A stretch of DNA of 64,000 nt. Origin: Thermoproteota archaeon. Lineage in GTDB: Archaea > Thermoproteota > Thermoprotei_A > Sulfolobales > Ignisphaeraceae. Both the position numbers and the translations under genes were made by a program. Position 1 is the stretch's first letter; the number at the start of each line of letters is the position of its first letter. The notes under the pieces are model-generated. The model saw nothing but the letters and a program-made list of their open reading frames with translations. It was not told where the DNA came from and did not search any database. Positions 2,885 to 28,848 of this stretch are shown here, piece after piece. The DNA lies in the NCBI GenBank assembly GCA_030550585.1, contig JAUQPB010000002.1:206001-270000 (forward strand). The letters are read 5' to 3'.

Positions 2885-3769
2885 TTGAAGACTCTAATAG
2901 TAGGCAACATAACTATTGACGAAGTTGGGGATAGGATTAGAGTTGGTGGGACAGGATACTATGGAGGCAGGGCACTTGCAGAGTATCTAGATGCTGAGGT
3001 CTATGTGGCTACAAACATTGGCGAGGCTTACAAAGGTCTTGTAAAAAGTGTTCTAGAGTCGCATGGAATAAAGGTCATCGAGATTGGCTACAGCTCTACG
3101 CCAGTATTTGTCATTAGAGATGGTAAAGCTGTCAGCTTCAAAGGTGAAAGCCCAAGAATAAGCCTATCAAATTTAGAGCCCTATGCAAGAATCTATAGAT
3201 TCGATGTGGTTATCCTAGGTCCAATCTTCAGAGAGATAGATTTAAATGAAATAGACCAGATACTGTCTTGGGGCTCCAAGGTAGTAGCGCTCGATATCCA
3301 GGGGCTAGTGAGAAGCGTTGCTGATGGCGAATTAAAGCTTGTTTGGGACTACAGCATCGAGGAGAAGCTTAGAAAAATAGATATTGTACATGGCAATGTG
3401 AAGGAGTTTTGCTTCTCAGACGACATAAAAAATGTTTTAGGTAAAGCAAGGGAGTGGAGCTCAACAACAAAAACGATATATCTTATCAGCTTGGATGAGA
3501 GGGGTCTATACATCGTGGCAAATAATGAAATATTGTATGTTAGGCCACCACCAACAAATCCTGTTGATGAGGTTGGTGCAGGAGATATTCTGTTATCTGT
3601 TACAGCATATTATATTGCGAAGGGCTTTAACACCATAGAATCTGTTCTCAGAGGAGTGGCAGCTGCTACCCTAAAAATAGAGAATGCATATAGAGAGTGG
3701 TTTGACAGAAACTCCTTAGAGTCTCTGGCAAAAGAGTTGGAAAGGTTTGTGGAGGGGGTGAATATATGA
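2885..3769 (+). CDS. PfkB-family carbohydrate/nucleoside kinase
   Basis: A ribokinase-fold kinase transferring phosphate from ATP to a sugar or nucleoside. The C-terminal signature VDEVGAGDILLSV matches the PfkB anion hole and catalytic base (GAGD), and the N-terminus has the Gly-rich GGTGYYGG loop. I place the start at TTG 2885 because GGTG at 2875-2878 is six bases upstream and the product then begins MKTLIVGNITID, the usual family start. GTG 2876 is the alternative. It lies 11 bp after the dehydrogenase and overlaps the next gene by four bases (ATGA), so the three form an operon. The substrate cannot be read from sequence. Confidence 0.85.
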   Translation: MKTLIVGNITIDEVGDRIRVGGTGYYGGRALAEYLDAEVYVATNIGEAYKGLVKSVLESHGIKVIEIGYSSTPVFVIRDGKAVSFKGESPRISLSNLEPYARIYRFDVVILGPIFREIDLNEIDQILSWGSKVVALDIQGLVRSVADGELKLVWDYSIEEKLRKIDIVHGNVKEFCFSDDIKNVLGKAREWSSTTKTIYLISLDERGLYIVANNEILYVRPPPTNPVDEVGAGDILLSVTAYYIAKGFNTIESVLRGVAAATLKIENAYREWFDRNSLESLAKELERFVEGVNI

Positions 3770-9904: not shown

Positions 9905-9957
9905 TCAGCGTTTGCACCGCTCATCACATTGCTCAGCCCCGGATACTCGATCATCAC
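9905..9957 (-). ncRNA. C/D box sRNA (2'-O-methylation guide)
   Basis: Read on the minus strand: C box GTGATGA (9957-9951), 14-nt guide, D' box CTGA (9936-9933), 5-nt spacer, C' box GTGATGA (9927-9921), 12-nt guide, D box CTGA (9908-9905). All four boxes match the archaeal consensus exactly and the spacings are canonical. Such RNAs bind L7Ae, Nop5 and fibrillarin and direct ribose methylation at the base paired with the fifth guide position upstream of D or D'. The guides are TCGAGTATCCGGGG and GCGGTGCAAACG. Targets were not identified. Confidence 0.85.
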
Positions 9958-25416: not shown

Positions 25417-26439
25417 ATGCCACTAGCTATAGTTGTTGGTGGCTTCTTTGGCGATGAGGGCAAGGGCAAGGTGGCAGCATATCTTGCACTAGCTGATAAC
25501 CCGTCTATTGCTGTTAGGTGTGGCTCTATAAATGCTGGTCATACAGTTGTCTATGGCGGTAGAACATGGAAGCTTAGACTCGTTCCATCGTTTTTTGTCA
25601 ACAGAAATGTGAGGCTTATGATTGCGGCAGGGGCTTTGATAAGACTCGACGTGTTCTTTAGTGAGGTTGAGGAGACTGGTGTTAGGGACAGGATATTTGT
25701 TGACAGAAATGCTGGTGTTATTGAGGATAGGCATGTTGAGGCTGAGAAGAGGGATGCTTTTTTAGTCAAAGACGTTGGCTCAACATTGCAGGGAGTAGGA
25801 TTTGCGATGTCTGACAGGGTTTTGAGGAGGCTTAGGCTTGCCAAAGATTTTGATGTGTTAAGAGATTATCTTGTAGATGTATCGCTGGAGGTTAATAGCG
25901 CTATCGATAGAGGGGAGATTGTCTATATAGAGGGTGTTCAAGGAACCTTTCTAAGCCTGTATCACGGCACATACCCATATGTTACAAGTAGAGATACAAC
26001 AGCATCAGCCTTTGCTTCAGAGGTTGGTGTCGGTCCTAAGAAGGTTGACGAGGTTATAGTTGTTTTCAAATCATATGTCACAAGAGTTGGTGGAGGCCCT
26101 CTAGAGGGTGAGCTCCCACCCGAGGAGGCTGAGAGGCTTGGACTAGTTGAAGTAGCTACTGTTACCGGTAGAAGAAGAAGGGTAGCGCTATTCAATGTAG
26201 AGCTTGCTAAGAGAGCAATAATGCTGAATTCCGCAACCCAAGTGGCTATAACTAGACTCGACGCCCTCTATCCAAACGATAAGTGTGTTAGAGAGTGGGG
26301 CAAACTATCAAAAGAAGCTAGAAACTGGGTAGAAAACATAGAGAGTTCTCTAAAAACTCCAATAACAATTATTGGCACAGGAGAAGATGCTTTATGCACA
26401 ATCGATAGACGAAAAGAGCTTGGATTGGGGTGGAGATAA
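25417..26439 (+). CDS. purA: adenylosuccinate synthetase, short archaeal type
   Basis: Makes adenylosuccinate from IMP, aspartate and GTP, the first step from IMP to AMP. The P-loop GDEGKGK starts at residue 12 with catalytic D13; the partner His is H42 in INAGHTVVYGG. At 340 residues it is ~90 shorter than the bacterial enzyme, as usual for the archaeal form. Start at ATG 25417 after GGGGGTAGAG. The TAA overlaps the next gene's ATG. Confidence 0.93.
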   Translation: MPLAIVVGGFFGDEGKGKVAAYLALADNPSIAVRCGSINAGHTVVYGGRTWKLRLVPSFFVNRNVRLMIAAGALIRLDVFFSEVEETGVRDRIFVDRNAGVIEDRHVEAEKRDAFLVKDVGSTLQGVGFAMSDRVLRRLRLAKDFDVLRDYLVDVSLEVNSAIDRGEIVYIEGVQGTFLSLYHGTYPYVTSRDTTASAFASEVGVGPKKVDEVIVVFKSYVTRVGGGPLEGELPPEEAERLGLVEVATVTGRRRRVALFNVELAKRAIMLNSATQVAITRLDALYPNDKCVREWGKLSKEARNWVENIESSLKTPITIIGTGEDALCTIDRRKELGLGWR

Positions 26440-27866
26440 TGGAGAAGCAATACGATGTTGCAATAATTGGTGGGGGTGTAGCAGGGCTTTTTGCAGCATA
26501 TGAGCTTTCAACCCATGGATTTGGAAAGCTGAGGGTGGCCATCGTTGAGATGGGTAGCGAAAATCCGTTTAGAACATGTCCAATGCTCAACCTAAAGAAG
26601 CTTGCAAGAGATAAGGAATGTGCTCTGTGCAAACCGTGCAATGTTATGTCAGGTGTTGGAGGGGCTATAACATTTAGTAGTGGAACCATGAATCTTAGAC
26701 CAGATGTTGGAGGGGATCTGGACAAGCTCCTCGGCAGCTGGGAAGAGGCTGAGAAGCTGATACAATATGTTGACAGCGTGCTGGTAAAGTTTGGTGCTCC
26801 AGATAACCTATATGCGATTGACTATGAGCAGACCTCGGAGCTCGAGAGACTAGCTGCAAAAGCCGGTGCAAAGTTTGTTCCAACGCCTCAGAGGCTCATA
26901 GGCTCTGAGAACATGCCCAAGGTCATAGCAAACATGGTTGACTATTTGAAGAGCAGGGGTGTGGAGATACATGGGCATACAGAGGTTACAGACATCGAGC
27001 ATGCAGAGAATAGGATAAGGCTTAAAACAACAAAGCTAGACATAGTATCTAGATATGTTATTATAGCACCTGGAAGAATTGGGGCTGAATGGTTTTCCCA
27101 ACTAGCAAAGAGAAGGGGTATAGATGTTGAGCCCGGCCCACTGGACATTGGTGTAAGGGTCGAGGTTCCAGCATATGTCACTGAGCCTATAACAAAGCTT
27201 GTCAGAGATCCGAAGATAATAATGTATACGAAGAGCTATGACGATAAAGCAAGAACATTTTGCACAAATCCAAATGGGCTTGTTGTTGAGGAGAGGTATC
27301 CAGACGACTCGGTTGGTGTGAATGGAGAGAGTTTTGCAACAATAAAAAGCAAGAACACGAACTTTGCGTTGCTAATAACAGTTAGGCTCACAGACCCCTT
27401 TGAAGATACCATAGCATATGGGAAAAGCATAGCCAGACTGGCGACAAAGCTTGGCGGTGGGAGACCAATCATCCAGAGGTTTGGCGATTTAGAGGCTGGG
27501 AGAAGGAGTACATGGTCAAGAATAGAAAGGAGTGTTGTAGATCCGACACTAAAATCTGTAACGCCGGGAGACATAGCCATGGCCTACCCCTACAGAGTAG
27601 TTGTCAATATAATAGAGGCTCTAAAGAGGTTAGACATAATAATGCCTGGAATAGCATCGCCACAAACACTCCTATACGCACCAGAAATAAAATTCTACAG
27701 CACGAGAGCCAGAGTCAGCAGAGAACTTGAAACAAACTTGAAGAACGTCTTTGTTGCTGGGGATGGGGTAGGGCTCTCAAGAGGTATGAACGTAGCAGCT
27801 GCAACAGGAGTAATAGCCGCCAGATCCATACTAAAGAGAGAGGGTATCGAGTTTGAAGACGGCTAG
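26439..27866 (+). CDS. FAD-dependent dehydrogenase, COG2509-like
   Basis: A flavoprotein of about 475 residues. The ADP-binding motif IIGGGVAGLFAAYEL is at the N-terminus; FVAGDGVGLSRGMNVAAATG near the end closes the FAD site. A Cys cluster (RTCPMLN, then CALCKPC) follows the first motif. ATG 26439 is six bases after GGGGTG and overlaps the purA stop (TAATG), so the two are co-transcribed. The substrate is unknown in the family; geranylgeranyl reductase and NADH:flavin reductase are distant relatives. Confidence 0.85.
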   Translation: MEKQYDVAIIGGGVAGLFAAYELSTHGFGKLRVAIVEMGSENPFRTCPMLNLKKLARDKECALCKPCNVMSGVGGAITFSSGTMNLRPDVGGDLDKLLGSWEEAEKLIQYVDSVLVKFGAPDNLYAIDYEQTSELERLAAKAGAKFVPTPQRLIGSENMPKVIANMVDYLKSRGVEIHGHTEVTDIEHAENRIRLKTTKLDIVSRYVIIAPGRIGAEWFSQLAKRRGIDVEPGPLDIGVRVEVPAYVTEPITKLVRDPKIIMYTKSYDDKARTFCTNPNGLVVEERYPDDSVGVNGESFATIKSKNTNFALLITVRLTDPFEDTIAYGKSIARLATKLGGGRPIIQRFGDLEAGRRSTWSRIERSVVDPTLKSVTPGDIAMAYPYRVVVNIIEALKRLDIIMPGIASPQTLLYAPEIKFYSTRARVSRELETNLKNVFVAGDGVGLSRGMNVAAATGVIAARSILKREGIEFEDG

Positions 27867-27907
27867 AAATAAGAACAATGATGGCCGACTATATTAAGGT
27901 AGCGTCT

Positions 27908-27957
27908 ATGATGATGGGCCTAAGCACTGATACTATGATGATAATTGCACGTGCTGA
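27908..27957 (+). ncRNA. C/D box sRNA (2'-O-methylation guide)
   Basis: C box ATGATGA (27908-27914), 12-nt guide, D' box CTGA (27927-27930), 4-nt spacer, C' box ATGATGA (27935-27941), 12-nt guide, D box CTGA (27954-27957). Every box is perfect and both guide spaces are exactly 12 nt, the archaeal optimum. The guides are TGGGCCTAAGCA and TAATTGCACGTG. It sits in the 97-bp gap between two convergent genes, possibly processed from the 3' end of the purA operon transcript. Targets not identified. Confidence 0.9.
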
Positions 27958-27963
27958 TTAGAG

Positions 27964-28848
27964 CTATTTCCTCTCTTCTGTACTGGGCTCTATATGAACT
28001 GTGGCCTCCCAGCCAAGCCTCTCCCTAATCCTCTTTTCTATTTCAGTTGCTATCTCATGAGCCTTGTCCAGACTCATGTTTGGGTCTAATCTTATGTGGA
28101 GAGTTACCTCAGTATGCACGCCATATCTATGCACATGTATGTGATGCAGATCCTTGGCCTGCGGACTTACCTCGCTAACTATCTTTTCAAGCTCCTTAAT
28201 CTCTTCAACCGTCGGTGCCTTTCCAAGTAATTCGCTACCTGATTCGATAACAAGTTTTACTGCAACAGCTATTATCATTATCGAGACTATAATTCCGAGA
28301 ACACCGTCAAGCCACCATAACATCGCACCGAATAATATTGCTACGGCTAGAAGTGCTGATGCTATGGCATCGCTTCTGTGATGCCAGGCATCAGCAATAA
28401 TGGAAGATGCATTATATTTTTTACCTAGCCTTATAGCCCAAATCGCTAAAAGTTCTTTAGCTATAGCCGACGATGCCAGGACTATAACGAGTATCCAGCT
28501 GAAAATGAGGCCTTCTCTTGATAGAAGTTTGTTAAAGCTTCTCTGTATAAAGTCTATACCAACCATTATAAGCATCGCTCCAATAACAGTTGCTGCAATG
28601 GGCTCTGCTCTCCCATGTCCGAATGGATGCTCTTTGTCAGCTGGTTTATATCCTATCCAAAATCCTAGTATAACAACAACTGAGGTTAGAGAGTCTGATA
28701 GTGTGTGGATAGAGTCTGCTATAACAGCTATTGAGTTGAATGTAACACCATAGTAAAACTTTACTATAAAAAGCAGGGTGTTTACAATTATCGAGACTAG
28801 ACCCTCTAAATACCCTGCATATTTTCTCTCATCTCCTTTACTATACAT
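27964..28848 (-). CDS. cation diffusion facilitator (Zn/Fe/Mn efflux)
   Basis: A proton-coupled divalent-metal exporter of 294 residues with six hydrophobic segments and a C-terminal cytoplasmic ferredoxin-like domain of ~90 residues. The transport-site residues are visible: DSIHTLSD in helix 2 (HxxxD) and DAWHHRSD in helix 5 (HxxxD). The C-terminal domain keeps DLHHIHVHRYG, a metal-binding stretch. A TATA-like ATTTAAAAAC just upstream predicts a near-leaderless mRNA from ATG 28848. Confidence 0.92.
   Translation of the reverse strand: MYSKGDERKYAGYLEGLVSIIVNTLLFIVKFYYGVTFNSIAVIADSIHTLSDSLTSVVVILGFWIGYKPADKEHPFGHGRAEPIAATVIGAMLIMVGIDFIQRSFNKLLSREGLIFSWILVIVLASSAIAKELLAIWAIRLGKKYNASSIIADAWHHRSDAIASALLAVAILFGAMLWWLDGVLGIIVSIMIIAVAVKLVIESGSELLGKAPTVEEIKELEKIVSEVSPQAKDLHHIHVHRYGVHTEVTLHIRLDPNMSLDKAHEIATEIEKRIRERLGWEATVHIEPSTEERK

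Follow-up and report, generated by a model that had tools for sequence, protein, structure and literature searches.

The gap between two convergent genes in the window analysed here, a 64,000-nucleotide stretch of archaeal DNA, raises the question of whether the 50 bases at 27908-27957 on the forward strand encode a functional RNA and, if so, which molecules its guides would address. Read directly, these bases run ATGATGA-12 nt-CTGA-TACT-ATGATGA-12 nt-CTGA. An earlier sequence-only reading had described C, D', C' and D boxes at consensus and two guides of 12 nt each, and we find the coordinates and the sequence exactly as claimed. The terminal C (RUGAUGA) and D (CUGA) boxes, together with internal D' and C' boxes held apart by a short (4-nt) spacer, are the marks of an archaeal box C/D sRNA. 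On this sequence evidence there is little doubt that 27908-27957 is a gene for a methylation-guide sRNA of the box C/D type, with the following features.

27900-27907, + strand: 5' flank TAGCGTCT, possibly one arm of a short terminal stem (a weak, by-eye reading)
27908-27957, + strand: box C/D sRNA core from C box to D box, assigned from its sequence, from boxes beyond chance expectation and from its retention in four species of the genus
27908-27914, + strand: C box ATGATGA, assigned from sequence, with TGATGA present in all four orthologs
27915-27926, + strand: D' guide TGGGCCTAAGCA, 12 nt, whose nucleotides 2-11 pair with tRNA-Leu(UAG) nucleotides 31-40
27927-27930, + strand: D' box CTGA, assigned from sequence
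27931-27934, + strand: D'-C' spacer TACT, 4 nt, assigned from sequence and variable among orthologs
27935-27941, + strand: C' box ATGATGA, assigned from sequence
27942-27953, + strand: D guide TAATTGCACGTG, 12 nt, whose nucleotides 2-11 pair with 23S rRNA GACGUGCAAUUC
27954-27957, + strand: D box CTGA, assigned from sequence
27958-27966, + strand: 3' flank TTAGAGCTA, which shares 27964-27966 with the cation-efflux gene's stop codon (- strand)

The combination of C, D' and C' boxes alone occurs twice in the 64-kb window against an expectation of 0.00 (100 dinucleotide shuffles, with no match in any). A terminal stem, TAGC-G-TCT against AGAGCTA (27960-27966) with one bulged G, could form in the window and partly in the related genome G009 but not in G008, and this by-eye reading is weak. 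An Rfam search of the window returned no family matching the element. Archaeal C/D sRNAs that are short and lineage-specific normally lack such a match. The second occurrence of the pattern in the window is a perfect C/D-like element at 9905-9957 (- strand), which reads GTGATGA-TCGAGTATCCGGGG-CTGA-GCAAT-GTGATGA-GCGGTGCAAACG-CTGA. Its two guides have no good target in 16S rRNA, the 23S rRNA of G009 or the tRNAs of the window genome, and from their sequences both look like orphans or aim elsewhere.

For the D' guide of the sRNA at 27908-27957, the scan covered 43 ARAGORN predictions made from 42 tRNA locations identified in the genome. Its best partner among all tRNAs found is the genome's own tRNA-Leu(UAG). 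Guide nucleotides 2-11, counted from the D' box, form 10 uninterrupted Watson-Crick pairs with the anticodon-loop stretch GCUUAGGCCC, and guide nucleotide 5 faces the wobble U34. The remaining leucine tRNAs have other bases in the anticodon and at position 38. We predict from this pairing that the D' guide directs 2'-O-methylation of U34 in tRNA-Leu(UAG). A study of S. acidocaldarius reports Um34 or s2Um34 in tRNA-Leu(UAG) of that organism and names a C/D sRNA for U34 of tRNA-Gln(UUG) (PMC7668247). No guide for U34 of tRNA-Leu(UAG) is named in the texts covered here, the passages of that study among them. The Ignisphaera genome G002 contains a C/D-like element (L067, around 1472-1525) whose D guide pairs at 10 of 10 positions with the tRNA-Gln(UUG) anticodon loop, the tRNA being that of the window genome, again with U34 at guide nucleotide 5. 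This fit in the same ten-pair register suggests that position-34 guides exist in Ignisphaera.

The tRNA target of the D' guide may not be unique, because tRNA-Pro(UGG) pairs with the same guide nucleotides 2-11, with a single G-U pair at nucleotide 6 and with U34 likewise at nucleotide 5. The element could thus be a real C/D sRNA whose main D' substrate is tRNA-Pro(UGG), or one that serves both tRNAs. We regard this as unlikely, although it survives best among the alternatives. The sole base that separates the two substrates is guide U6, which lies opposite A35 in tRNA-Leu(UAG) and G35 in tRNA-Pro(UGG), and it favours the leucine tRNA, where the match is perfect. It is also tRNA-Leu(UAG) for which the methylated U34 of S. 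acidocaldarius is on record.

With tRNA-Leu(UAG) as the preferred D' target, the second guide can be considered. In the window genome, N masking covers the rRNA operon apart from the last third of the 23S rRNA gene. Because the own-genome 23S is masked at the target, sister-species 23S sequences were used for the D guide. Its nucleotides 2-11 form 10 uninterrupted Watson-Crick pairs with GACGUGCAAUUC in helix 35/35a of the 23S rRNA of G009, G010 and G011, all of the same genus. The site is identical in these three sister species, whose sequence is unmasked in this region, and most of the order shares it. The D guide is predicted to place Um on the U of GACGU, which is U904 in the 23S rRNA of G009, the nearest complete relative; by alignment this is about position 749 of E. 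coli, a number with a possible error of a few bases, because the alignment is loose in the helix 35/35a loop. Helices 35/35a of 23S rRNA are described as a predicted hotspot of archaeal 2'-O-methylation (PMC4644070). The D guide has no partner in the tRNAs, in 16S rRNA or in the available 3' third of its own genome's 23S rRNA, and the D' guide likewise has no target in that third. Neither guide pairs convincingly with 16S rRNA in 30 genomes of the order, three of which belong to the same genus.

The sequence-only reading had predicted rRNA or tRNA partners for the guides. This expectation is borne out in the correct register for both, with 10 pairs between the D' guide and tRNA-Leu(UAG) and 10 between the D guide and sister-species 23S rRNA. 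Each guide falls within the 10-12 nt range and its duplex includes at least 9 Watson-Crick pairs with nucleotide 5 among them, the complementarity threshold being that of PMC4644070. How readily such matches arise by chance was estimated with shuffled cores against 8,265 bases, comprising the 23S and 16S rRNAs of G009 and the own-genome tRNAs. An exact complement was found for 1.0% of shuffled D' cores and 0.1% of shuffled D cores. Both complements would arise together by chance in about 1 in 100,000 cases, as the product of the two rates taken as independent.

A search for the exact core of either guide in 229 genomes of the class gave matches in 4 of the 11 Ignisphaera genomes (G000, G005, G008 and G009) and in 0 of the 218 others. 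In the alignment of the four orthologs, the D' guide core GGGCCTAAGC (nucleotides 2-11) is invariant and nucleotides 1 and 12 vary; in the D guide, TAATTGCACGT (nucleotides 2-12) is invariant and nucleotide 1 varies. The D'-C' spacer, which is 3 or 4 nt long, drifts in sequence as well, and the flanks have diverged too. The S. solfataricus enzyme is reported to work best with a 10-bp duplex (PMC7089733 citing Yang 2016), and invariant cores with drifting guide ends are the pattern that this 10-nt substrate rule predicts. The frozen core, set against the drifting nucleotides 1 and 12 of the D' guide and nucleotide 1 of the D guide, gives the rule, known from work in vitro, independent support from sequence. 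Box anatomy, base pairing and conservation are all direct observations in these genomes.

The anticodon loop of tRNA-Leu(UAG) matches the D' guide perfectly in all four carriers, including C38. Where this tRNA could be read in non-carriers of the genus, G002 and G010 have A38, while G003 and G011 have C38. The association between the sRNA and C38 is suggestive only, because the non-carriers are divided in this way. The exact guides are absent from 7 of the 11 genus members, among them G003 and G011, which keep the matching tRNA loop; these two would either lack the U34 methylation or achieve it by another route. Looser patterns gave further matches in G231, G185, G012 (contig C20) and G015, which look like chance and lie mostly in apparent coding sequence. 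Elements in G202 (L156) and G227 (L157) look like real C/D sRNAs and were not counted; on inspection they make 6-7 pairs with their own tRNA-Leu(UAG). The second of these, near position 1500 in a genome from another family of the order, is a C/D-like element with a D guide that forms 11 Watson-Crick pairs with 16S rRNA near 1366.

The conservation also bears on whether both guides are in use. Conceivably only one is functional, and the match of the other is a coincidence, that guide being an orphan or a chaperone that acts free of methylation. There is a precedent in Pyrobaculum, where tRNA-targeting sRNAs have one targeted guide and another without a target (PMC7994747). Still, we consider this very improbable here, as both cores are unchanged at the same 10 positions throughout the four species and neither complement is likely to have arisen by chance. 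That the boxes are a chance arrangement of motifs in an intergenic region, with no gene at all, can be dismissed as barely credible: the motifs are short and lack an Rfam match, but 0.00 occurrences are expected by chance, two perfect 10-nt target matches are found, and the core is kept in four species amid partly different surroundings.

We return to a double-guide sRNA with both guides probably in use, and to its setting in the genome. The position between convergent genes given by the sequence-only reading holds, since the sRNA lies in a 97-nt gap flanked by an FAD-dependent oxidoreductase gene upstream (26430-27866, + strand, with its stop ending at 27866) and a CDF-type cation-efflux gene downstream (27964-28848, - strand, with its stop codon at 27964-27966). 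The sequence after the D box runs into this stop codon. The best relative of the cation-efflux protein is from an Ignisphaera MAG, at 66% identity. A locus (L003) on the same MAG contig holds the sRNA too, and on these grounds we assign the window to Ignisphaera. In G008 and G005 the sRNA again follows the same FAD gene, whose UGA stop codon sits inside the C box: the FAD ORF ends at L197:3162 in G008, where the sRNA starts at 3159, and at L198:2925 (- strand) in G005, where the sRNA spans 2880-2928. In both genomes a different gene follows the sRNA, and then the cation-efflux gene. The contig of G009 starts 450 bases before the sRNA and has no recognisable FAD gene end, and the next gene after the sRNA is the cation-efflux gene, just as it is in the window. 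Archaeal C/D sRNAs commonly share their C box with an upstream stop codon, and the majority of them lack a promoter, according to PMC7994747 (on Tripp et al. 2017). We therefore prefer the view that the sRNA is made as part of the upstream mRNA and then processed.

Two further observations concern this neighbourhood. A short adenylosuccinate synthetase gene (25417-26439 in the window; 340 aa, Pfam PF00709) lies upstream of the FAD oxidoreductase gene and overlaps it, and the adjacency of the two is kept in G005 and G008. G005 has another C/D-like element (L198:5575-5624, - strand) immediately before its adenylosuccinate synthetase gene, on the upstream side and two genes away from the conserved sRNA; the D' guide of this element fits 16S rRNA with G-U pairs.

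Taken together, the sequences make it highly probable that the element is an Ignisphaera double-guide box C/D sRNA gene, with the D' guide aimed at U34 of tRNA-Leu(UAG) and the D guide at 23S helix 35/35a. Expression, RNP assembly and methylation would follow the known biochemistry of the family. The transcript would be cut from a longer RNA and would form two kink-turns, C/D and C'/D', to which L7Ae, Nop5 and fibrillarin would bind. These three proteins are general in archaea. By pairing with the tRNA-Leu(UAG) anticodon loop, the D' guide would direct a 2'-O-methyl group to wobble U34, and the D guide would direct another to the U of GACGU by pairing with the helix 35/35a loop of 23S rRNA.

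The sRNA appears to be a well-made, ordinary member of a known RNA kind, whose two targets make a somewhat unusual combination. It resembles the archaeal double-guide box C/D sRNAs of the Sulfolobus, Pyrococcus and Pyrobaculum sR families in its C, D', C' and D boxes and 12-nt guides, in its 10-bp duplexes, in methylation (here predicted) opposite the guide nucleotide five positions upstream of D or D', and in its location, which is near the ends of neighbouring genes or overlaps them. Like the position-34 C/D sRNAs named in the sources available to us (Pyrococcus Leu-CAA, Leu-UAA, Met and Trp; S. acidocaldarius Gln-UUG), it pairs over the anticodon loop and addresses the first anticodon nucleotide, but its target is tRNA-Leu(UAG). 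Its D guide is like those of sRNAs aimed at 23S helices 35/35a in that the target lies in the hotspot region (PMC4644070), a comparison by region and not by exact nucleotide. In contrast to the Pyrobaculum tRNA-targeting sRNAs, whose other guide is targetless according to a review of that survey (PMC7994747), this sRNA combines one tRNA target with one 23S target, contrary to the pattern reported there. We found no statement of a tRNA-Leu(UAG)/23S guide pair in the partial literature covered, and do not claim mixed guides as new. On balance, we lean towards the view, drawn from these sequences, that one sRNA here joins a tRNA-Leu(UAG) wobble guide to a helix 35/35a guide, so that one RNP would modify both a decoding tRNA and the ribosome, and that this arrangement arose within Ignisphaera. 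The findings offer two precise, testable methylation sites in a hot-spring archaeal genus with little RNA work. In particular, U34 of tRNA-Leu(UAG), which is reported as 2'-O-methylated in Sulfolobus acidocaldarius, gains a candidate Um34 guide, here joined to an rRNA guide.

Two C/D sRNAs from the sister genus, in G012 (L069, near 1406, - strand) and G017 (L080, near 1483), have D guides that end in GCACGTG, as in the Ignisphaera sRNA, and that make 7 pairs with the 23S site of the Ignisphaera D guide. Their D' guides fit 23S rRNA about 25 nt upstream with 9-10 pairs, and that of L069 also fits tRNA-Ser. As far as sequence comparison goes, this pattern is a hint that D' guides have been exchanged during evolution.
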